64,000 nt of DNA, from contig NZ_JBGNYA010000001.1 of NCBI RefSeq assembly GCF_041477585.1, positions 186,001-250,000 on the forward strand, given 5' to 3'. Within the stretch, counting starts at the first letter, position 1, and each line of letters begins with the position of its first letter. The position numbers and the translations under genes were made by a program. This DNA is from Halobellus sp. MBLA0158 (GTDB lineage Archaea; Halobacteriota; Halobacteria; Halobacteriales; Haloferacaceae). Under the pieces are notes generated by a model. The model made no database searches and was not told where the DNA came from. It worked only from the letters and a program-made list of their open reading frames with translations. Shown piece after piece: positions 7,697 to 58,534 of this stretch.

Positions 7697-10600
7697 ATGA
7701 ACCACGACTCGAAGGCGGGGCGTGCGGTAGTCCTCGCAGCGCTCGTAGTGATTTCGATGGTCGCTGCCGGGGTTGGTATCGCCGGGAGCGCAGCGGCGAG
7801 CGAATCCACCGGGGAGGGTGCGACCGGCCAGAGCGCAGCGCCTCTCGCGTCGGCGAACAGCATATCAGACGGCAGCGCGAGTGCTTCAGGCGATCTCTCC
7901 GGTGCCGCAGAGCCAAGAGACGAGGCCGCACAGGTCGCAGTCACTCCAAGTGATCTCTCGGGGAACGGAACCGCGGACGACCCGTACGTAATTACTAATG
8001 CCTCGCAGCTGCAGGCGATGGAAGACGACCTGGACGCTCACTACCGACTGGGCGACGACATCGACGCCTCGAACACCACCACGTGGAACGGTGGGAGGGG
8101 ATTCGATCCCGTTGGATCCAACACGACGTCGTTCACGGGAACGTTCGACGGAATGGGTCACGACATTACAGGGTTGACCATAGATCGGACTGAAAACAAC
8201 CTCTCCGCACCGGTGGGTCTTTTCACCCGAGTCGGATCATCGGCACGCATCGAGAATGTTGATTTAGAACAGGTGTCAATCGCTGCGAATCGTTCGCTCG
8301 GAAGTCACGGCTTTAGCGGGGATAATCTATATGGTGTAGGTGCGCTCGCTGGGGAGAGCGAGGGAACAGTTCAGGATGTTTCGGTAAGTGGTCAGGTGTC
8401 CGGAGCGTACGACGTAGGCGGATTGATCGGAATTAGTTCCGGCTCCGTCAGAAATGTCTCTGCCAGCGCCACGACCGTTGGGACCAACGGGGTGGGGGGA
8501 CTCATCGGAACGGTGGAGTCGGGCGGCACGGTCGCCGACGTGACGCTTCGTGACCCGACCGTACTGGTGTATCGAGCAGACCAAAATGACAGCCTTCGTT
8601 TCTATGGAATCGGTGGCCTCACCGGACGCCTCAACGATGGAAGTCGGATTGAGAACGTAACGGCAGAGGTGAATGTCACTGTGACTCGATCGTCGATTGC
8701 AAACCTCTCCGAGGGCTACTATGTAGGTGGATTGGTCGGTGCGAGTGGCGGCACAGTCACGGACGTTCACACGAGCGGCCGAGTGAGAGGATATCTCGAT
8801 GTGGGAGGGATAATTGGACTCCAAGAGGGGAACACCACGAATATATCGAGTAATGCCACTGTCGTCGGGATTGCCGACATCGGAGGGGTTACCGGACAGC
8901 TGAATGACGGAAGGCTCGTTAACGCAACGTCAAGCGGCTACATAGATGGATACCCGTACGACGGTGTCGACGAGGTGCAGTCGGAGGCCTCCGGACTTGG
9001 TGGACTCATTGGAGAGACGGCCGGCGGCACCGTTCGGAACGCTTCCAGCAGCGCGACGATCAACGCGTCGTACTCAAGTTCGTCGGGAGGTCTCGTCGGA
9101 TCGAACGGAGCAACGTTGATTGATGTCACGGCAAGTGGGTATGTGAATGCCACACCCTCGGGATCAGTACCGACGATCAACGAGGATATCGGGGGACTCG
9201 CTGGCACGAACAGCGGGACGATTCGAAACGCCACGGCCACCGGTCGCGTGGACGGGGCCTTTGGAGACAGTCGCTCGTTAGGCACTAACAGAATCGGCGG
9301 CCTCGTGGGCGATAATTCGGGGACGATCCGGAATGCCTCCGCGACTGGCCGAGTGACGGGTTCCGACAACGTCGGGGGGCTTGCTGGCGAAAGCTCCGGG
9401 ACGATTCGGATCGCAGCTGCGCGGGGCGACGTCAACGCTTCCAGGTATAGAGTCGGTGGGCTCGTCGGATTATACGAAGGTGATACGATCACGAACACGT
9501 CGGCGCGCGGGTCAGTGAATGGTTCGGAACGCGTCGGAGGGCTCGTCGGCGAGAGTCGTGGTAACGGGATCAATCACTCTTTCGCGGTCGGGAACGTCAC
9601 CGGTTCGAATCTGACAGGTGGAGTCGTGGGATCGAAAGCTGACGAGTTCGATGGCTCAATTCATTCGTATTGGGACATCGAAACGACCGGCCAGGACTCA
9701 TCCGCTGGCGAAAGAGATAGCTACCAAGATCCCGACGGACTCCAGACCAGCCAGATGACCGGAGAAGCCGCCGAGTCAAATATGACCGAACTGTCGTTTG
9801 GGACAGTTTGGTACACTAGGGCGAACGACTACCCAGTCCTCGCGGCGCGGACGGATCCGAGCACGCTGTTCTCGATCGCGAGCGCGAGCGTGGTTGACGC
9901 GACCGACGCGAACGGGAACGTCACGACGAACGATGCGATCGAAGTTCGAGCGGATATCGATGGTGTCGTCGACTCCGTCACAGCGAACACCTCATCGTTC
10001 GGCGGACCGGAGTCGCTATCCCTCTCCGACGGGGACGGCGACGGGACGTACAATGGCACGTTCACCGTCTCGGCGACGGGCCGAGACGACGACTACCGGA
10101 TCGAGATTACGGCAACGAATACAAACAGTGTCACATCAGCGGAGACGAATCAGATCCGACTGGATACGAGCCAGCCCGTGTTCAGGTTCGATACCGGCGA
10201 CGGCATCGTTGATCTCGAAAACAACGACGGAGAAGTCGGTGACGGAGATCGGGTCGGCGTCAATATCACCGCCTACGACACCGACTCCGGGCTAGCGACC
10301 CTCCAAGCGAGCGCGTCCGACTTCGGTGCCGGTTCGGTCACGCTGACCGAGTACCGAGACGGCAGTTACACCGGCACATTCACCGTCGACGCGGCGAACG
10401 CATCGTCGGACGGATCGTACGCCGTCAGTGGATCGGCCACGAACGGCGTCGGCCAAACGACGACCGCCACGTCCGACGACCTCGTGCTAAACACGTCGCG
10501 AACGCCTTCGGATTCGACCCCACCGGTGCTCACTAACGCGACCATCACCGACTTCGGGAATCCGTTCGCCGACTTCTACGTGAACGACGGCGACGAGGTG

Positions 10601-13600
10601 TTCATCAACGTCACAGTCACCGACTCGGGCGGCAGCGGTGTCGTGAGCGTCGAAGCCGACGCGAGCGGCTTCGGTGCTGGGACGGTGAATCTCACCGACG
10701 GGGATAACGATAGCGTCTACAACGCCACGTTCACCGTCAACGGCTCCAGGGTCTCCGGGGAAGACTTGATCATCAGGCCCGAGATCACCGCAACCGACGG
10801 TGCAGGGTACAGTAACAGTACAAAACCGGAAGACAAGGTCGGGAACAGAGTGTATCTGGACACGGTTCCACCAGAAGCGAACCTCACCGCCAATCGGACA
10901 ACTATCCAACCGGGAGACGCGATCAGGCTCAACGCCAGTGGATCGAGCGATGGCAGCTTCCGTGACCTCGAATCCATCCGCTGGGACTTCGACGGCGACG
11001 GCACCGTCGAACAGTCTGGGTCATTTTCGAGAAATTCGGAGGTCACATACCAGTACGTCTCGGCAGGCACGTATGCAGCCGAAGTCAACGTGAGTGACGA
11101 CGCCGGCAACACGAACACCACGTCGATCACCATCGACGTGAGCGAGACGAACCGGGCGCCGACGGCGACCGACGACGGCTACACCACCTCGGAAGATGTG
11201 CCGCTGACCGTCGACGCGTCCCGGGGCGTGTTAGCGAACGACACGGATCCGGACGGCGACTCGCTGACTGCGACGCTCGCGAGCGGGCCGACGAACGGGA
11301 CGCTCTCGCTGAATGCAAACGGGAGCTTCACCTACACCCCGGATCAGAACTTCGCCGGAACCGATTCGTTCACCTACAACGCCAGCGACGGCGAATTCAA
11401 CAGCACCGCGACGGTCACAGTAACGGTATCCCCGGTGAACGACGCGCCGGTCGCACGCGACAATAACTATACCGTCAGCGAGAGCACCGACCGCAGCGAC
11501 TCGGTGTTGAGCGTCTCGGAACCGGGAGTGCTGGGGAACGACTCCGATCCGGAGAATGACACGCTGGCCGCGGCGCTCGTGAGCGGCCCGACGAACGGGA
11601 GCCTCACGCTCTACGCGAACGGGAGCCTCCGCTACACGCCAGAGCAGGGCTTCGTCGGCACGGATTCCTTCACCTACAACGCCACCGACGGACGGGCGAA
11701 CGACACGGCCACAGTCACGATCAGCGTGACCGGGACGAACCAGGCGCCGACGGCGGACGACGACAGCTACACCACGACCGAGAACGAGACGCTGAACGTC
11801 ACGGATCCGGGCGTCCTGGACGACGATCAGGATCCGGACGACGGAGACACCCTCACCGCTGTCGTGGATACCGGCCCGGAGAACGGAACGCTGGATCTCA
11901 ACGCGACCGGCGGCTTCTCGTACGATCCGAACCCCGGCTTCAACGGCACGGATTCGTTCACCTACAACGCCAGCGACGGACAGGCGAACGACACCGCGAC
12001 CGTCACCATCACCGTCGAGCCGTCGGGGCCGAGTGATTCGACGCCCCCGGCGCTCTCGAATCCGACGCTGACCGACGCGAGCGACGGCGACGGCTACGTC
12101 GCCGACGACGACCGGATCGCCGCGGCGGTCACAGTCACCGACAGCGGCGGGAGCGGCCTCGACGGGGTCGGCGTCAACGCCGGCCGGTTCGGCGCCGGGA
12201 CCGTGAACCTCACCGACGCCAACGGCGACGACACCTACAACGCCACGTTCCGCGTCGACGACACCGACGCCGGAAACGACGGAACGGTCACGCCGCTCTT
12301 CCGCGCCGTCGACAACGCGAGCAACATAAACACCACGAGCGGGCCCTCGCTCACCCTGGACACCGAGCCGCCAACGGCGAGCGTCACCGCCAACCGAACG
12401 TCGATCGCGCCGGGAGAGACGGTTCGGTTCAACGCGAGCACCTCCACCGACAACCTCGCCGACGGACTCTCCCACCACCGATGGGACTTCGATTCCGACG
12501 GCGGGATCGACGCGAACAGGTCCTTCGATGACACCGCGACCGTCGCACACGCGTTCCAGTCGAACGGGACGTATGCGGTCGAACTCACCGTCTCGGACCG
12601 CGCCGAGAATACAAACACCACGTCGATCACCGTCGACGTGAAAGAAGCGAATCGGGCGCCGACGGCGGACGACGACGGGTACAACACGCCGGAGAATACC
12701 ACGCTGACCGTCGACGCGTCCCAAGGCGTGTTAGCGAACGACACGGATCCGGACGGCGACTCGCTGACCGCGACGCTCGTGAGTAGCCCCGCGAACGGAA
12801 GCCTCTCGCTGGATGCGAACGGGGGCTTCACTTACGTCCCGAACCAGAGCTTCGTCGGCACCGACTCCTTCACCTACAACGCCACCGACGGCGAATTCAA
12901 CAGTACCGCAACGGTCACGATCAGCGTCACGGCGACGAACAGCGCACCGATCGCGCGTAACGACAGTTACACTGCGAGCGAGAACACGACGCTGGGCGTT
13001 TCAGCACCGGGCGTCCTCTTCAACGACTCCGATCCGAACAACGATTCACTCGCGGTCGGCATAGTGGACGGTCCGGACAACGGAACGCTGATCCTCAACG
13101 CGAGCGGAAGCTTCGCGTACACGCCCGACTCTGGCTTCACCGGATCCGACTCCTTCACGTACGACGCCAGCGACGGACAGGCCAACGACACCGCGACCGC
13201 CACCATCACGGTCGAGCCGTCGGAGCCGGATGATTCAACGTCTCCGGCTCTCACAATTCCAACCCTCAGCGACCTGAGTGACGGCGACGGCTACGTCGCC
13301 GACGGGGATCTGATCGGTGCAGTGGTAACGGTCGACGACGCCGGCGACAGCGGGATCGCGAACGTCTGGATCAACGCGAGCCGGTTCGGCGCCGGAAACG
13401 TCACCCTCACCGACGGCAACGACGATAGCGTCTACAACGCCACGTTCGCCGTCGACGACTCGAACGCGGGGGGAGACGGGAGCGTTACCCCGACGTTCTA
13501 CGCTGCGGACGGTGCAGGCAACGACAATTCGACGTCCGGGCCCTCGCTGATCCTCGATACGACCGCTCCGGGCGTGTCGATCGACGCCAGCAATATGACC

Positions 13601-16600
13601 GTCGGAATCGGCGAGACGGTCGACTTCGCTGCGTTCGCGGGCGACCCGTCGTCGATCGAGAGCTACGACTGGCAGCTCGGTGACGGAACGGACGCCAGCG
13701 GACCGACGGTGAACCACTCATACGCCGCCGCGGGGACGTACACGGTCGAACTCACAGTCACCGACGGCGCGGGGAACACGGAGACCTCGACCACCATAAT
13801 AACGGTCGAAACCGAGGATCAGCCGGCGGCGCCACCATCGGAGCCGGTCGTCAGCGCGCCCGAAGACCAGCAATACGTGCCCAGCGTGGGCGGAACCCCA
13901 GAGATCAGCTACAACGCCACGGGCGTCATCGATCCCGCGGACGTCGGCCTCGTGGTGCGGAACGCGACCGCTGGCAACGACACCGTCGTCGCGAGCGCGA
14001 CGCCCGATAGCGACGAAGGGGTCGAAGAAGTGCGGATCCCCGGCGGCACGCTCTCGGGAGACGTCACGCTGAACGTCACGCTCGTGAACACAACTGAGGA
14101 GAGGGTCTACGCGTCTGATCTGGTGAACCTCACCGCGGTGACCGCACCGGCGATCCTCACGCCCGCGAACGGCACCTACGATCCGACGGCCGAGACCACG
14201 ATCGGAACGTTCCACGTCGCGGAGGGCGTCATCGCGTCCGGAGACGTCGGCATCCGCCTGCGGAACGTCACCGGGACCAACGACACCGTGGTCGCGAGGA
14301 ACACGTCCGTGCCGCCGATCGGGAACGCCAACACGACAGTCCCGTCCAGAGCACTCGCCGGCAACGTCACGCTGCGGGCCGAGTTGTACAACACCTCCAA
14401 CGGAAGCACGGCAGCCGCCGGGCTGGTGAACCTCACGACGACGACGACGGACGGGGACGACGAGGCGGACGGCGGCGTGGACGAGCCCGCACCGACCGTC
14501 CTCGTCCCGGGTGATAGCACGTACGACCCCACCGAGGAACTCAACGTCGGGATCGAGTACAACGCGACGGGATTCGTCGCGCCCGACGACATCGAGATTC
14601 GGTTCCGGAACGCGACCGCTGGCAACGGCACGGTCGTCGCGACAGCGACGCCCGAAAGCGCGAGCGGGAGCGCGGGAGTCACGATCCCCGCCGGCACGCT
14701 CGCCGGCGACGTCACCATCAACGTCACCCTCGCGAACGGCACGACAGACGTCGTCTACGCGTCCGGGCTGGTGACCTTCACCGCCGAGACGGTCGACGGC
14801 GGAGGTGGCGGAGGTGGCGGAGGTGGCGGAGGTGAGGGTAGCGCTCCGCCCGCGCCGGCGATCTTCGCGCCGGCGAACGACACCTACAATCCGGACGTCA
14901 CGTTCAATTTCACGGCGTTATACAACGCCACGGGCGTCATCGCACCGGCGGACGTCGGCGTCCGCCTCCGGAACGTCACTGACGGCAATTCGACTGTCGT
15001 GGCGAGAAACACCACCCTCTCGGATCTCGGCGAAGCCCGGCTGCGAGTCGAAGCCGGCGCGCTCGACGGCAACGTCACCGTGCGGACCGAGCTCTACAAC
15101 ACGACGAACCCCGGTACCACGGCGGCCGAGGGGATCACCAATCTGACCGTCGGCGCGGCCGACGCGGCGCCGACCGCCTTGCCGTCCGTCCCCTCGACGG
15201 CGAGCGTGAATCAGTCGGTCACGCTCGACGGACGGCCGTCCGTCGACGACGGCGCCATCGCGAACTACAACTGGACCGTCGTGGCGCCGAACGGGAACGT
15301 GACCGACCTCACGGGAGCGAGGGCGACGTTCGTCCCGAATCAGACCGGGACGTACAACGTCACTCTCACTGTCACTGACGACGCGGGCAAGACCGACAGC
15401 GAGAACCGAACCATCGAAGTCTCCGGCGGGCCGTTCGTCGTCGCGTCGAGCCTGAGCCACGTCGGCGGCGCACAGCCCGACTTGGCCAACGTCGGCCTGC
15501 GCGCGGAGTTCTCCAGCGGGCTCCTCCAAGTCCAGCTCAGAAACGAGTCCTACGTCGGCCGCGAAGCGGGCGAGCCGGGCGGCAACTACGAACTCGACGG
15601 ACTCGGCGTCACCGACTCCACCCGAATCCGGGTGAACGTCACCGTCGCGAATTTCACGCCGCGGGTCCTGATCGGCTCCGCCCGCAACGTGACTTGGTCG
15701 CGGACGCGCACCGCCGACGGCGACTGGCGGCTCTCGATCGCGGGATCGCCGGCGGAGGTCCACTCGTACTTCGAGAATGGAACCGGTCCGGAGGAGTGGA
15801 ACGGATCGCTGGTCGCGACGGAGTCACAGAATCGGACCATCTCCTACGCCGTCGACGGACTTTCGACGGTCTCGCCCGCGTACCGCGAGCGGCTGAACGG
15901 CAGCGTCTTCATCACCGACGCCCAGCGGTTCGGAGCGCCGACGTACAACGCCTCGGCGACCCCGGATCGGGTGGAACTGGAGGTCGCGGCGCCGCACTAC
16001 GAGACCGACGGCGAGACCGTCAATGAGGGCTTCTTCGAGGCGTACCTCCCCCCGTCGCTGCTCGACGAGTGGGGCGTGAGTACCTCGGATCTCGTCGGGA
16101 CGTTCAACGGATCGCGCCGGGATGCCACCGTCTCGGCCGTTTCGGGCGGGGGCGCGGCGATCGCGTTCAACGTCACCTACTCCGAGGGGACCGCCGCAGT
16201 GACGTACGACACGTCGAACGAGACAACCGACGCGCCGATCGCGAGCAACGACAGCTACGCCGTCAAGCGGAACGCGACCCTGTCGGTCGCCGAGCCGGGC
16301 GTGCTCGGCAACGACTCCGATCCGGCGGGCGATCTGAACGCGTCGGTCGTCGACGGGCCGGAAAACGGATCGCTCACCCTCTACGAGAACGGTTCGTTCG
16401 CCTACGATCCCGACGAGGCGTTCGTCGGCACCGACTCGTTCACCTACGAGGCGACGAACGAAAGCGGCGGGACGGACAACGCGACCGTGGTCGTCAGGGT
16501 CGTCGCTCCCCGGCCCGCTGACGTCGTTTCCGCGGTCGAGGTCGACGGTACGATCGAACTGGTGACCAACCGATCCGCCGCCGTCCGGCCGGGATCGCTG

Positions 16601-18064
16601 CGGGTTCGGCTCGATGGGACCGAGGTGTACAACGCCTCCGACAGATCGACTGCGGGGCCGGTCGGCGGAGTCACCGTCACGCCCGCGGCCGGGAACGCCA
16701 GCGCGCGTCACACCGTTGTGCTGACGAGCGGCGGCGACGCGGTCGAAGTCGATCCCGTCCGGAATCTGTCGGTGTCGCTGACGCTGAATGCGACGACGGC
16801 GGGCGTCACCGCCACGAGTCGGGTGTCCGAGGAGGTGACCGTCACCGGCGCGGTCGTCAAGGAAAGCGGCGGATTCGACAGCTCTGAGGATGCCCAGCGT
16901 ATCTACCAGGGGACTCCGCTGGCCGTGCAGTCGGACGTCTCCGGGCCGAACACGGTCCTGTACTTCGATACCACCGGACAGATGCTCTCGACCGGGCCGA
17001 ATAGTACCGTGCTGGCTCTGAACACGTCCGAATTCGGATTCAACGTCGGCGAGACGACGGGAGTCGAGTTCGCTGACGACGGCGGGAAGGTCGAGTACTT
17101 CGAGCTCGCCGACCTCGGCTGGTCGGTCGCCGTCGCCGACGCGACCGTCACCACCGATCAAGTCGTCGAGGCCACCGTCTCGGCCAACCGGGGCGGAGAA
17201 CCGTTCACCGCGACAGTGACCGACGCGAACGGCGACATCGTGGCGACGAAGCAACTGACACTGGACGGCGACGGTAGTACGACGGTGACGTTCGACCCGG
17301 CCACCGTCGACGGGCTCGACGCCGGCGGGACATACACCGTGACGGCGACCGACGATCGAACCGGCAACGTCGCCACGGACACGGTCGAGATCATCGAGCC
17401 GGCGTTCTTCGACGTCGCGATCGACTCGACGAACGCGCCGGTAGTCGCGGGCGAGAACCTCACCGTCGACGTGACCGTCTCCAACACGGGCGGCGAGGGC
17501 GGCAGTCGAACGATCTCCCTGCTCGTCGACGGCACGGAGCGAAACAACACGTCGGTCGAGGTCGCGGCGGACGGCTCCGAGTCCGTGTCCCTCGCGTGGA
17601 ACACGACCGGCGCCGACGCCGGCGACTACGTCGTCGAGGTCGCGAGCGAAGATGATACGACGACGGAGACCGTGACCGTGGAGGTCCCGGGGCCGAACAT
17701 CACCGTCGATTCCGCGTCGCTCTCGACGGGAACGATCACAGTCGGAGAGACACCTACTGTCACCGCGACGGTGACCAATAGGGGAGCAGTGGAAGCTACA
17801 GAGCGCATCGCACTGTCCGCAGACGAGACGCCGCTCGCGATTCAGGAAGTGACACTGGGAGCCAGCAACACGACCGAAATCACCTTCGCCGAGTACGGCG
17901 CGTCGCTCGATCCCGGCACCTACGAGATTCGCGTCGGGAATCAGAGTGCGGGAACGCTCACCGTCGAGGAGTCGTCGTCGGGGACCGGAGCGCCCGGGTT
18001 CGGCGTCGGCACCGCCGTCGGGGCGCTCGCCCTCGTCGTCCTGTGGACGCGGAGACGGCGCTGA
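7697..18064 (+). CDS. Giant cell-surface protein (3455 aa) with GLUG, PKD and cadherin-like repeats and PGF-CTERM
   Basis: A signal peptide (about residues 1-34) and a C-terminal PGFGVGTAVGALALVVLW-RRRR tail of PGF-CTERM type mark an archaeosortase-anchored surface protein. Order: GLUG-type GGLVG repeats (about 190-700, closing with a YWDIETTGQ segment); Ig-like strands (720-1060); three super-modules each opening with a DSTPP/DSTSP sandwich domain (residues 939, 1447, 1846) then a PKD domain, followed by 3, 2 and 0 cadherin-like Big_9 repeats with VLxNDxDP calcium-type motifs; four repeats of a 100-residue APANGTY...RLRNVT type (about 2050-2485) split by an 11-Gly linker; a fourth PKD; a unique region; a sixth cadherin-like repeat (about 2845-2935); an S-layer-like region (about 3055-3150); two CARDB domains; anchor. 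N-x-T/S sequons are abundant, implying heavy glycosylation. A role in adhesion or surface layering is inferred. Confidence 0.93.
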   Translation: MNHDSKAGRAVVLAALVVISMVAAGVGIAGSAAASESTGEGATGQSAAPLASANSISDGSASASGDLSGAAEPRDEAAQVAVTPSDLSGNGTADDPYVITNASQLQAMEDDLDAHYRLGDDIDASNTTTWNGGRGFDPVGSNTTSFTGTFDGMGHDITGLTIDRTENNLSAPVGLFTRVGSSARIENVDLEQVSIAANRSLGSHGFSGDNLYGVGALAGESEGTVQDVSVSGQVSGAYDVGGLIGISSGSVRNVSASATTVGTNGVGGLIGTVESGGTVADVTLRDPTVLVYRADQNDSLRFYGIGGLTGRLNDGSRIENVTAEVNVTVTRSSIANLSEGYYVGGLVGASGGTVTDVHTSGRVRGYLDVGGIIGLQEGNTTNISSNATVVGIADIGGVTGQLNDGRLVNATSSGYIDGYPYDGVDEVQSEASGLGGLIGETAGGTVRNASSSATINASYSSSSGGLVGSNGATLIDVTASGYVNATPSGSVPTINEDIGGLAGTNSGTIRNATATGRVDGAFGDSRSLGTNRIGGLVGDNSGTIRNASATGRVTGSDNVGGLAGESSGTIRIAAARGDVNASRYRVGGLVGLYEGDTITNTSARGSVNGSERVGGLVGESRGNGINHSFAVGNVTGSNLTGGVVGSKADEFDGSIHSYWDIETTGQDSSAGERDSYQDPDGLQTSQMTGEAAESNMTELSFGTVWYTRANDYPVLAARTDPSTLFSIASASVVDATDANGNVTTNDAIEVRADIDGVVDSVTANTSSFGGPESLSLSDGDGDGTYNGTFTVSATGRDDDYRIEITATNTNSVTSAETNQIRLDTSQPVFRFDTGDGIVDLENNDGEVGDGDRVGVNITAYDTDSGLATLQASASDFGAGSVTLTEYRDGSYTGTFTVDAANASSDGSYAVSGSATNGVGQTTTATSDDLVLNTSRTPSDSTPPVLTNATITDFGNPFADFYVNDGDEVFINVTVTDSGGSGVVSVEADASGFGAGTVNLTDGDNDSVYNATFTVNGSRVSGEDLIIRPEITATDGAGYSNSTKPEDKVGNRVYLDTVPPEANLTANRTTIQPGDAIRLNASGSSDGSFRDLESIRWDFDGDGTVEQSGSFSRNSEVTYQYVSAGTYAAEVNVSDDAGNTNTTSITIDVSETNRAPTATDDGYTTSEDVPLTVDASRGVLANDTDPDGDSLTATLASGPTNGTLSLNANGSFTYTPDQNFAGTDSFTYNASDGEFNSTATVTVTVSPVNDAPVARDNNYTVSESTDRSDSVLSVSEPGVLGNDSDPENDTLAAALVSGPTNGSLTLYANGSLRYTPEQGFVGTDSFTYNATDGRANDTATVTISVTGTNQAPTADDDSYTTTENETLNVTDPGVLDDDQDPDDGDTLTAVVDTGPENGTLDLNATGGFSYDPNPGFNGTDSFTYNASDGQANDTATVTITVEPSGPSDSTPPALSNPTLTDASDGDGYVADDDRIAAAVTVTDSGGSGLDGVGVNAGRFGAGTVNLTDANGDDTYNATFRVDDTDAGNDGTVTPLFRAVDNASNINTTSGPSLTLDTEPPTASVTANRTSIAPGETVRFNASTSTDNLADGLSHHRWDFDSDGGIDANRSFDDTATVAHAFQSNGTYAVELTVSDRAENTNTTSITVDVKEANRAPTADDDGYNTPENTTLTVDASQGVLANDTDPDGDSLTATLVSSPANGSLSLDANGGFTYVPNQSFVGTDSFTYNATDGEFNSTATVTISVTATNSAPIARNDSYTASENTTLGVSAPGVLFNDSDPNNDSLAVGIVDGPDNGTLILNASGSFAYTPDSGFTGSDSFTYDASDGQANDTATATITVEPSEPDDSTSPALTIPTLSDLSDGDGYVADGDLIGAVVTVDDAGDSGIANVWINASRFGAGNVTLTDGNDDSVYNATFAVDDSNAGGDGSVTPTFYAADGAGNDNSTSGPSLILDTTAPGVSIDASNMTVGIGETVDFAAFAGDPSSIESYDWQLGDGTDASGPTVNHSYAAAGTYTVELTVTDGAGNTETSTTIITVETEDQPAAPPSEPVVSAPEDQQYVPSVGGTPEISYNATGVIDPADVGLVVRNATAGNDTVVASATPDSDEGVEEVRIPGGTLSGDVTLNVTLVNTTEERVYASDLVNLTAVTAPAILTPANGTYDPTAETTIGTFHVAEGVIASGDVGIRLRNVTGTNDTVVARNTSVPPIGNANTTVPSRALAGNVTLRAELYNTSNGSTAAAGLVNLTTTTTDGDDEADGGVDEPAPTVLVPGDSTYDPTEELNVGIEYNATGFVAPDDIEIRFRNATAGNGTVVATATPESASGSAGVTIPAGTLAGDVTINVTLANGTTDVVYASGLVTFTAETVDGGGGGGGGGGGGEGSAPPAPAIFAPANDTYNPDVTFNFTALYNATGVIAPADVGVRLRNVTDGNSTVVARNTTLSDLGEARLRVEAGALDGNVTVRTELYNTTNPGTTAAEGITNLTVGAADAAPTALPSVPSTASVNQSVTLDGRPSVDDGAIANYNWTVVAPNGNVTDLTGARATFVPNQTGTYNVTLTVTDDAGKTDSENRTIEVSGGPFVVASSLSHVGGAQPDLANVGLRAEFSSGLLQVQLRNESYVGREAGEPGGNYELDGLGVTDSTRIRVNVTVANFTPRVLIGSARNVTWSRTRTADGDWRLSIAGSPAEVHSYFENGTGPEEWNGSLVATESQNRTISYAVDGLSTVSPAYRERLNGSVFITDAQRFGAPTYNASATPDRVELEVAAPHYETDGETVNEGFFEAYLPPSLLDEWGVSTSDLVGTFNGSRRDATVSAVSGGGAAIAFNVTYSEGTAAVTYDTSNETTDAPIASNDSYAVKRNATLSVAEPGVLGNDSDPAGDLNASVVDGPENGSLTLYENGSFAYDPDEAFVGTDSFTYEATNESGGTDNATVVVRVVAPRPADVVSAVEVDGTIELVTNRSAAVRPGSLRVRLDGTEVYNASDRSTAGPVGGVTVTPAAGNASARHTVVLTSGGDAVEVDPVRNLSVSLTLNATTAGVTATSRVSEEVTVTGAVVKESGGFDSSEDAQRIYQGTPLAVQSDVSGPNTVLYFDTTGQMLSTGPNSTVLALNTSEFGFNVGETTGVEFADDGGKVEYFELADLGWSVAVADATVTTDQVVEATVSANRGGEPFTATVTDANGDIVATKQLTLDGDGSTTVTFDPATVDGLDAGGTYTVTATDDRTGNVATDTVEIIEPAFFDVAIDSTNAPVVAGENLTVDVTVSNTGGEGGSRTISLLVDGTERNNTSVEVAADGSESVSLAWNTTGADAGDYVVEVASEDDTTTETVTVEVPGPNITVDSASLSTGTITVGETPTVTATVTNRGAVEATERIALSADETPLAIQEVTLGASNTTEITFAEYGASLDPGTYEIRVGNQSAGTLTVEESSSGTGAPGFGVGTAVGALALVVLWTRRRR
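14800..14835 (+). repeat. In-gene tandem 9-bp repeat encoding a poly-Gly linker
   Basis: About four copies of the unit GGAGGTGGC encode 11 consecutive glycines followed by Glu-Gly between two repeat domains of the giant surface protein. Unit changes keep the reading frame, so linker length could vary by replication slippage. Confidence 0.85.
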
Positions 18065-56438: not shown

Positions 56439-56493
56439 CCGACCGGCGCACACCCACACGGGTCGTTGCAGAGCCGCGACAATCGGCGTCAGA

Positions 56494-56523
56494 ATTTTAT
56501 GATCATTATATTTATTTCCAAAT
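56494..56523 (+). promoter_or_regulatory. AT-rich promoter with ATGATCAT palindrome before the LigM-like gene
   Basis: TTTTATGATCATTATATTTA (56494-56513) contains a TATA element centred 26 bases before the ATG at 56524 and an 8-nt palindrome ATGATCAT (56499-56506) overlapping it. The base composition is unlike the surrounding DNA. Confidence 0.6.
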
Positions 56524-57927
56524 ATGTCGCCCGAGAACCTACAGGAGATGGTGGATGGCACCGATGACCTCGTAGGGACGTTCAGAGACCGGGACCTGGA
56601 GGCTTCGATCTGGGACTACCCGGACAAGCCCTACGACTTCCCGGCGGAGTTCAGCAACTGGATCCGCGAGCAGAAGGCCTGGCGCGAGCAGTGCGCCGTC
56701 ATCGATCAGTCCTTCCACATGACCCACTTCAGGGTCACCGGAGACGACGACGAGGCCCAGGACCTCTTCGAGACGGTCGGGATCAACAGCTTCGCCGACT
56801 GGCGCGACGGCGAGCCGCCGCGGGCCAAGCAGTTCGTCGCGCTCAACCCCGACGGCTACGTGATCGGCGACTGCATCCTCTTTTGGCTCGAAGAGGGCCA
56901 CTACCTGTTCGTCGGCGAAGAGCCCGTCAGCAACTGGACGACCTATCAGGCCGAGAAGGGGGGCTACGACGTCGACTGCGAGATGATCTACAATCCGCTC
57001 GGGCCGCGGGATCCGGAGTACTTCCGGTTCGAGATTATGGGCCCGAACGCGATCGACCTGATGGCCGAGGCCGTCGACGGCGACCTCCCCGAGATCCCGT
57101 TCTTCCAGATGGACGAGCTCTCGATCCAGGGCGTCGACGCGTACGCCCTGGGCCACCAGATGACGAGCGAGCGCGGGATCGAGATCTTCGGCGACTACGA
57201 GCACCACGACGAGGTGCTGGACCACATCTTCGCGGTCGGCGAGGACTACGGCCTCCGGCAGGTCGGCAACAAGGCCTACATCACCACCGGGATCGAACTG
57301 GGGTGGATCCCGCTCCCGCTGCCGGCGGTGTACGACAGCCCCGAGATGGAGGCGTACCGCGAGTGGCTCCCGATGGAGTCGATGGAGGCGAACTTCGTCC
57401 TCGGCGGGAGCTACGTCTCCGAGGACATCTCGGACTACTACGCGACCCTCGGCGGACTCGGATACGACCACATCGCGAAGTTCGACCACGACTTCATCGG
57501 CCGCGAGGCGCTCGAAGAAAACGAGGCGCTCCTCGACGGCGAACAGAAGGTGACCTTCATCATCGACGACGAAGACATTATGAAGGTCTGGGGCTCGCTG
57601 CTGGAAGAAGGCGAGACCTACAAGTTCCTGACGATGCCCGAAGTGCCGTACCGCTCGGAGCTCTCCCGGTACGACGAGATCCTAAAGGACGGCGAGACCG
57701 TCGGGATGGCGAAGCACATGGACTACAGCTACAACGAGCGTGAGTTCGCCGCCCTCGGGTGGATCGACACGGAGTACGCCGAGCCCGGCACGCGGGTCAC
57801 GATGCGCTGGGGCGAGCCCGACACCGAGAAGTCCCAGATCGAACCGCACGCGATGACCGAACTCAGGGCGACCGTCGCCCCGGCGCCGTACATGAAGAAG
57901 GACCGCGAGAAGGCGTTCGCGGACTGA
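56524..57927 (+). CDS. LigM-like aminomethyltransferase-fold enzyme (probable folate-dependent demethylase)
   Basis: The 467-residue protein has the GcvT/DmdA-type fold and closely follows the order of LigM, the bacterial tetrahydrofolate-dependent O-demethylase of vanillate: EFSNWIREQKAWREQC near residue 40, AKQFVALNPDGYVIGDCILF near 100, GHYLFVGEEPVSNWTTYQAEKGG, GWIPLPLPAVY near 260, AYREWLPMESMEA and a KFDHDFIGREALEENEA segment near 319. LigM is about 470 residues, the same size. It should transfer a methyl group from a small methoxylated or N/S-methylated compound to folate or a folate-like carrier. Haloarchaea use tetrahydrofolate, so this is feasible. An ordinary GcvT is much shorter and lacks these features. 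The substrate is not decidable. Confidence 0.82.
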   Translation: MSPENLQEMVDGTDDLVGTFRDRDLEASIWDYPDKPYDFPAEFSNWIREQKAWREQCAVIDQSFHMTHFRVTGDDDEAQDLFETVGINSFADWRDGEPPRAKQFVALNPDGYVIGDCILFWLEEGHYLFVGEEPVSNWTTYQAEKGGYDVDCEMIYNPLGPRDPEYFRFEIMGPNAIDLMAEAVDGDLPEIPFFQMDELSIQGVDAYALGHQMTSERGIEIFGDYEHHDEVLDHIFAVGEDYGLRQVGNKAYITTGIELGWIPLPLPAVYDSPEMEAYREWLPMESMEANFVLGGSYVSEDISDYYATLGGLGYDHIAKFDHDFIGREALEENEALLDGEQKVTFIIDDEDIMKVWGSLLEEGETYKFLTMPEVPYRSELSRYDEILKDGETVGMAKHMDYSYNEREFAALGWIDTEYAEPGTRVTMRWGEPDTEKSQIEPHAMTELRATVAPAPYMKKDREKAFAD

Positions 57928-57983
57928 TTCGAGCCGTTTCGAGTCTCCTGCGCACGGGTTTCCGTTTTTCGTCCGAGGCCGAC

Positions 57984-58004
57984 GAATCAGGAATCAGGAA
58001 TCAG
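57984..58004 (+). repeat. Three tandem copies of GAATCAG
   Basis: The 7-base unit occurs three times without gaps at 57984-58004, just downstream of the LigM-like gene. It may be part of the 3' untranslated region. Confidence 0.7.
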
Positions 58005-58143
58005 CCGATCGGCCGCCGTTTGAACCTCCGAAGTTGAATAGGGAACTTCTATGAGAGATAGAGAAACATACATTTAGAAATACGATACTTACTGATCTAT
58101 ACACACAGAAATTTTATGAATACCTGGACGTATGATATACTGT

Positions 58144-58413
58144 ATGACGCCGCTATCCAGCCTCGGCGTGTTCGTCGCACTCGCCGTCGCCGGGACCGCG
58201 ATCGCAGCACACCGGGGACACGTCCCGCCGGCGAAGCAGACCCACCTCTTCGAGACGCCCGACGGCGAGCGGGCCAATCCGCTCGCGGACGTCGTGGCCG
58301 GCGCGAAGATGGCGACGGAGACCGGCCTGTGTCACCGGTGCGGCGCCACGCTCGGCGGCCCCTACGAGTACTGCGTCACCTGTCGCCCGAACGGGGCGGT
58401 CCACGCGGACTGA
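58144..58413 (+). CDS. Small membrane protein with C-terminal zinc ribbon
   Basis: The 89-residue protein has one membrane segment (MTPLSSLGVFVALAVAGTAI) and ends with CHRCGATLGGPYEYCVTC, a CxxC-CxxC zinc ribbon. Together this resembles small halophile membrane-anchored zinc proteins of unknown role. TATA-like AATTTTATGAA about 30 bases upstream supports the ATG at 58144 over 58132. The preceding 200 bases are AT-rich and hold no gene. Confidence 0.72.
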   Translation: MTPLSSLGVFVALAVAGTAIAAHRGHVPPAKQTHLFETPDGERANPLADVVAGAKMATETGLCHRCGATLGGPYEYCVTCRPNGAVHAD

Positions 58414-58534
58414 GCGCCCGCTCGTCGGGCCCTCCGACCGCGAGATCCGTCGAAAACGAACCGACGCTACCGAGCGATCGGAGACCGACACCGCCCGAAT
58501 CCGAGCGGTGAACGCCGCCGACCGCGCCGACGCG

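Follow-up and report, generated by a model that had tools for sequence, protein, structure and literature searches.

Locus and insertion site

The window, i.e., the whole stretch of 64,000 nucleotides of Halobellus sp. MBLA0158 DNA that was analysed, carries a gene between radA and sufU that is predicted to encode a tetrahydrofolate (THF)-dependent demethylase (Table 1). The reading frame is intact from ATG to TGA, and its GC3 of 93% is similar to that of the adjoining genes. The gene stands alone, with no catabolic or folate gene adjoining.

Table 1. Features of the demethylase gene and its surroundings, in positions of the window.
Feature	Position	Strand	Basis
Species-specific insert, radA stop to sufU stop	56439..58534	.	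congener comparison
AT-rich promoter with TTTTAT box (56495-56500), probably leaderless	56490..56523	+	sequence; box assignment inferred
ATGATCAT palindrome overlapping the TTTTAT box	56499..56506	+	sequence
Putative LigM/DesA-type THF-dependent demethylase gene, 467 aa, GCV_T and GCV_T_C	56524..57927	+	ORF, domain, profile, PDB, and fold searches
His65 codon, equivalent to LigM His60	56716..56718	+	alignment
Glu132 codon, aligned with LigM Arg122 (presumed ligand of the substrate carboxylate), opposite charge	56917..56919	+	alignment
Glu220 codon, equivalent to LigM Glu215 (presumed folate ligand)	57181..57183	+	alignment
Tyr252 codon, equivalent to LigM Tyr247 (catalytic tyrosine)	57277..57279	+	alignment
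Trp261 codon, equivalent to LigM Trp256	57304..57306	+	alignment

The demethylase gene and a small unassigned ORF (58144-58413) make up the content of the 2.1 kb insert. Of the 14 congener regions examined, 13 retain the radA-sufU neighbourhood, and in the stretch from the remaining one (G048) no sufU was found. The demethylase gene was absent from all 14 regions. In the nearest congener, which has a 97% identical RadA, radA and sufU are separated by 70 bp, and in the second nearest by 138 bp. A GcvT-family gene of another kind occupies the site in two further congeners, and a counterpart of that gene (92% identical) lies at 855 kb in the window's genome. Among Halobellus species, the junction was found in three states, i.e., near-empty, with the LigM-type gene, or with the other GcvT-family gene (regions L202-L215), and by sequence comparison it looks like a recurrent insertion site. 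The search for direct repeats marking the insertion gave short, mostly coding near-repeats, and nothing convincing.

It is reasonable to ask if the gene is non-catalytic or decaying cargo of this variable site, because it is isolated, occurs in one species among the congeners compared, and occupies a place that holds other genes elsewhere. However, the frame is intact and its coding bias matches the neighbours, the active-site residues are retained despite only 62% identity to the nearest relative, and a plausible promoter of its own precedes it. A non-catalytic or decaying gene is thus very unlikely.

The 60 bp before the ATG have a GC content of 38%, the second lowest among the 50 genes in the window. 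The TTTTAT box is placed 24-29 nt ahead of the ATG, which would suit a leaderless haloarchaeal transcript. The AT-rich upstream stretch and the palindrome over the TATA-like box, both pointed out in the preliminary description, are real. The tight control read from the palindrome did not hold up. A perfect 8-bp palindrome occurs within 60 bp upstream of 15 of the 50 window genes, and neither the Halococcus orthologue nor the inspected paralogues show ATGATCAT in their upstream stretch. On these two grounds, the palindrome was ruled out as an operator.

Elsewhere, positions 9782-18064 of the window encode a giant surface protein of 2760 aa with many bacterial Ig/cadherin-like and PKD domains. 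The stretch upstream of it is lower in GC.

Family, fold and active site

The Pfam search recognized GCV_T (1e-35) and, weakly, GCV_T_C. In the PDB sequence search, residues 3-462 were matched to LigM of Sphingobium SYK-6 (5x1i/5tl4) with an E value of 4e-95 and 39% identity. LigM is a vanillate/3-O-methylgallate O-demethylase, represented by PDB entries 5x1i-5x1n and 5tl4. The AlphaFold model, made without rows from plasmid records, had a pLDDT of 90.5. The top matches of this model in the structure search were 16 LigM chains (TM 0.84-0.90), whereas GcvT, DMGDH, and DmdA gave TM values of 0.54-0.62 (DmdA 0.58). The likeness to LigM along the whole length, claimed earlier from the letters of the gene, was borne out by these searches.

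In the NCBIfam ranking, the syringate O-demethylase DesA (NF047633) came first with 430 bits over the full length, followed by LigM (NF047885, 386 bits), two GcvT models (66 and 41 bits), and DmdA (23 bits). The equivalog cut-offs of DesA (800 bits) and LigM (580 bits) were both missed by a wide margin. The GcvT scores were below their cut-offs of 300 and 236 bits, and the DmdA score was far below 410 bits. True family members clear the cut-offs, i.e., a Rhizobium copy scored 785 bits with the LigM model, and the plasmid-borne Sphingobium TomTYG64 protein scored 901 bits with the DesA model and has Arg at the LigM 122 position. DmdA, GcvT, and DMGDH share the GCV_T superfamily and a folate-binding domain with the 467-aa protein, but a grouping with DmdA or GcvT was not seen in the scores, and structure and tree agree. 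Full-length homology, fold, residues, and tree place the protein in the LigM/DesA family in the broad sense.

For the residues, LigM numbering was set so that Tyr247 falls in GSRAYPS. This residue is the catalytic tyrosine of LigM. In the 2017 LigM structure papers, Arg122 is reportedly the ligand of the vanillate carboxylate, and Glu215 and Trp256 are presumed folate residues. The equivalents of His60, Glu215, Tyr247, and Trp256 are all present in the 467-aa protein. In the tree set, they were kept in all 84 bacterial rows and in 53-55 of 55 haloarchaeal rows. At the position of LigM Arg122, 74 of the 84 bacterial rows and none of the 55 haloarchaeal rows have Arg, and the 467-aa protein and its Halococcus relative have Glu. 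From the alignment, the chemistry appears conserved, but the substrate anchoring does not. Because of the pocket change from Arg122 to Glu132, a free aryl carboxylate held in the manner of vanillate is an improbable substrate. Possible substrates are a neutral phenol, a cationic compound, or an acid that is already in the form of a CoA thioester. The protein is a genuine, and probably active, LigM-type demethylase from a haloarchaeal sub-branch whose pocket has changed.

The preliminary description had pointed to lignin-type demethylation. An enzyme with the function of LigM or DesA, i.e., a true O-demethylase of vanillate, syringate, or 3-O-methylgallate gained for the use of lignin monomers, would agree with the full-length match, the fold, and the kept catalytic residues. 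However, both equivalog cut-offs were missed while true members pass them, Arg122 is replaced by Glu, and the protein is placed outside the bacterial LigM/DesA clade. In addition, no ring-cleavage dioxygenase of the LigB type (LigAB) or the intradiol type (Dioxygenase_C), the families for protocatechuate and gallate, was found in the window's genome, in which a gentisate-dioxygenase-like gene scored below the cut-off. Demethylation of vanillate or syringate as such is hence unlikely.

Plant or synthetic aromatics of the SesA, BrdA, and dicamba demethylase kind are also taken by GcvT-related THF enzymes (PMC5547118, PMC9404685). A THF-dependent demethylenase or demethylase of this kind would be in line with a haloarchaeal pocket unlike that of LigM. 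BrdA is, however, approximately 27% identical to LigM and DesA, compared with 39% between the 467-aa protein and LigM, and such a function is given a similarly low probability. The assignment to a haloarchaeal LigM-type branch is preferred.

Descent and genomic distribution

Two trees were constructed. Tree 1 had 143 rows, and tree 2 had 83, was computed under a mixture model, and covered bacteria more widely. The bacterial rows were picked by likeness to the query, the supports are SH-aLRT values from a short search, and no deep branching order is claimed. GcvT and other GCV_T proteins served as outgroups, DmdA was compared by score and fold only, and the trees were made without Dmt, BrdA, and SesA sequences.

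In both trees, the 467-aa protein was paired (support 100) with a Halococcus dombrowskii plasmid protein, WP_244706592, annotated as aminomethyl transferase family protein. This is the closest relative found, 62% identical over the full length. The pair was placed inside an all-haloarchaeal clade of 12-13 rows (support 99-100). The bacterial LigM/DesA rows, including SYK-6 LigM, formed one clade (support 100) without haloarchaea. The GcvT-type outgroups were distant and separated from the 467-aa protein. By sequence, the placement is with LigM/DesA, not with GcvT or DmdA. A recent bacterial import of the window gene was ruled out, because all sampled bacterial LigM/DesA are in one clade lacking it. 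Of the earlier suggestion of transfer, horizontal acquisition stands, since the gene is found in one Halobellus species only and the closest copy is on a Halococcus plasmid, but acquisition directly from bacteria does not. The gene was probably gained in this Halobellus species from another haloarchaeon.

A further subfamily groups with bacterial proteins, and its haloarchaeal members are devoid of the catalytic Tyr. Among these members is a divergent paralogue at 375 kb in the window's genome. In this subfamily (L040, 8457-9749; L054, 13402-14715), Ser or Ala is found at the catalytic Tyr position. Relatives are carried on plasmids of Rhizobium, Agrobacterium, and Rhodococcus, and some adjoin purU or MTHFR. 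A different methyl or methylene transfer chemistry is possible for these proteins.

In the window's genome, 13 GCV_T genes were counted, and the 467-aa protein has eight matches there at E < 1e-60, including its own gene and one partial frame on the second contig. By alignment scan, LigM-type genes were located in 11 of 17 Halobellus genomes, with up to 14 in one and none in six. Among 292 sampled genomes of the class, strong LigM-type matches were found in 13, and eight of these are Halobellus.

The gene that comes after the Halococcus copy, on the same strand, encodes a FAD_binding_3 monooxygenase, a type common in aromatic hydroxylation. No orthologue of this FAD-dependent monooxygenase was found in the window's genome, where the best match is 29% identical. 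Genes for CoA ligase, enoyl-CoA hydratase, CoA transferase, acyl-CoA dehydrogenase, TPP enzyme, IclR, and TctA adjoin the clade-mates. At 2.25 Mb in the window's genome (L044, 9913-18844), two paralogues were found in a cluster, i.e., CoA ligase, LigM-type, hydroxyacid dehydrogenase, IclR-like (by eye), thioesterase, LigM-type, MTHFR, and ABC transporter genes. The order is the same in Halobellus limi (L104) and partly kept in Halosolutus (L103). This cluster is the best candidate pathway for the use of methoxy compounds in haloarchaea.

MTHFR linkage and proposed function

Folate-dependent O-demethylation is known from bacteria. In SYK-6, LigM forms a one-carbon module with MTHFR running in the oxidative direction (PMC12585457). 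Haloarchaeal LigM-type genes likewise often adjoin a bacterial-type MTHFR gene, i.e., at a distance of 0.2-1.1 kb in 8 of 10 genomes measured. Unlike in the SYK-6 module, the window gene is unlinked, and the haloarchaeal MTHFRs share only approximately 30% identity with the bacterial MTHFRs that adjoin LigM-type genes. All 13 genomes with LigM-type genes encode bacterial-type MTHFR, compared with 71 of 292 haloarchaeal genomes overall. The hypergeometric probability of this co-occurrence is 4e-9 when kinship is ignored, and counted by genus it is 5 of 5 (p 0.002). For the family, the linkage is evidence for the folate side of the mechanism, and by extension this would apply to the lone window gene. 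The folate-dependent methyl transfer of LigM type proposed in the preliminary description agrees with sequence, predicted fold, conserved residues, and this linkage, and is kept as a prediction.

THF is used by haloarchaea, and for Haloferax volcanii the F420-type Mer was proposed for methylene-THF reduction (PMC8305020). A Mer homologue, two bacterial-type MTHFRs, and two FolD-family genes were found in the window's genome. The second MTHFR is 74% identical to the LigM-linked one. It lies in a separate cluster (L047, 7321-16516; L048, 224-5029) with two FAD-GCV_T proteins of the dimethylglycine/sarcosine dehydrogenase type, a GlyA-like gene (by eye), and a GCV_T protein. This cluster is probably for osmolyte demethylation.

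The presence of that cluster has to be weighed for the window gene itself, which could act in the manner of DmdA or GcvT on a small osmolyte or amine such as DMSP, glycine betaine, dimethylglycine, or sarcosine. Osmolyte demethylation is probably present in the cell, the superfamily is the same, and a cationic group could be accommodated by Glu at the Arg122 position. However, the match to DmdA is poor in score and fold (23 bits, TM 0.58), the osmolyte-type genes are in a distant, different branch, with two such GCV_T proteins as tree outgroup, and the LigM tyrosine and the folate-site signature are retained. This function is rather improbable, and for DMSP or betaine, which had been named as possible substrates, no positive evidence was obtained.

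The explanation that we regard as fairly probable is a haloarchaeal LigM/DesA branch moving the methyl group of a methoxylated, probably aromatic, substrate to THF. The most likely substrate class is a methoxylated aromatic or its CoA ester. In the proposed mechanism, the methyl group would be passed to THF as the haloarchaeal C1 carrier, with Tyr252 for catalysis and Glu220 and Trp261 holding the folate. The demethylated product would enter catabolism. The 5-methyl-THF may be used for methionine, or be oxidised to methylene-THF by the bacterial-type MTHFR that is encoded elsewhere beside a paralogue.

A broader proposal is more tentative, and we give it somewhat less than even weight. Halobellus may run an undescribed and greatly expanded set of THF-dependent demethylases (as many as 14 in one genome) that have a reshaped pocket and are coupled to the bacterial-type MTHFR in the oxidative direction. 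C1 units and carbon would then be obtained from methoxylated compounds, perhaps as CoA thioesters, by an archaeal folate O-demethylation without corrinoid. In the literature searched, of which the coverage was partial, no report of LigM-type demethylation in haloarchaea, including the present branch, was found. If the proposal is true, saltern archaea would be able to use methoxylated plant or algal compounds, and they would be a source of salt-stable demethylases. Because the public records examined label these genes only as aminomethyltransferase family or hypothetical, such a capacity would be missed.

A LigM-type gene was also found on a Halalkalicoccus plasmid (L102, 7001-12986), a few kb from a tryptophan 7-halogenase gene and transposases.
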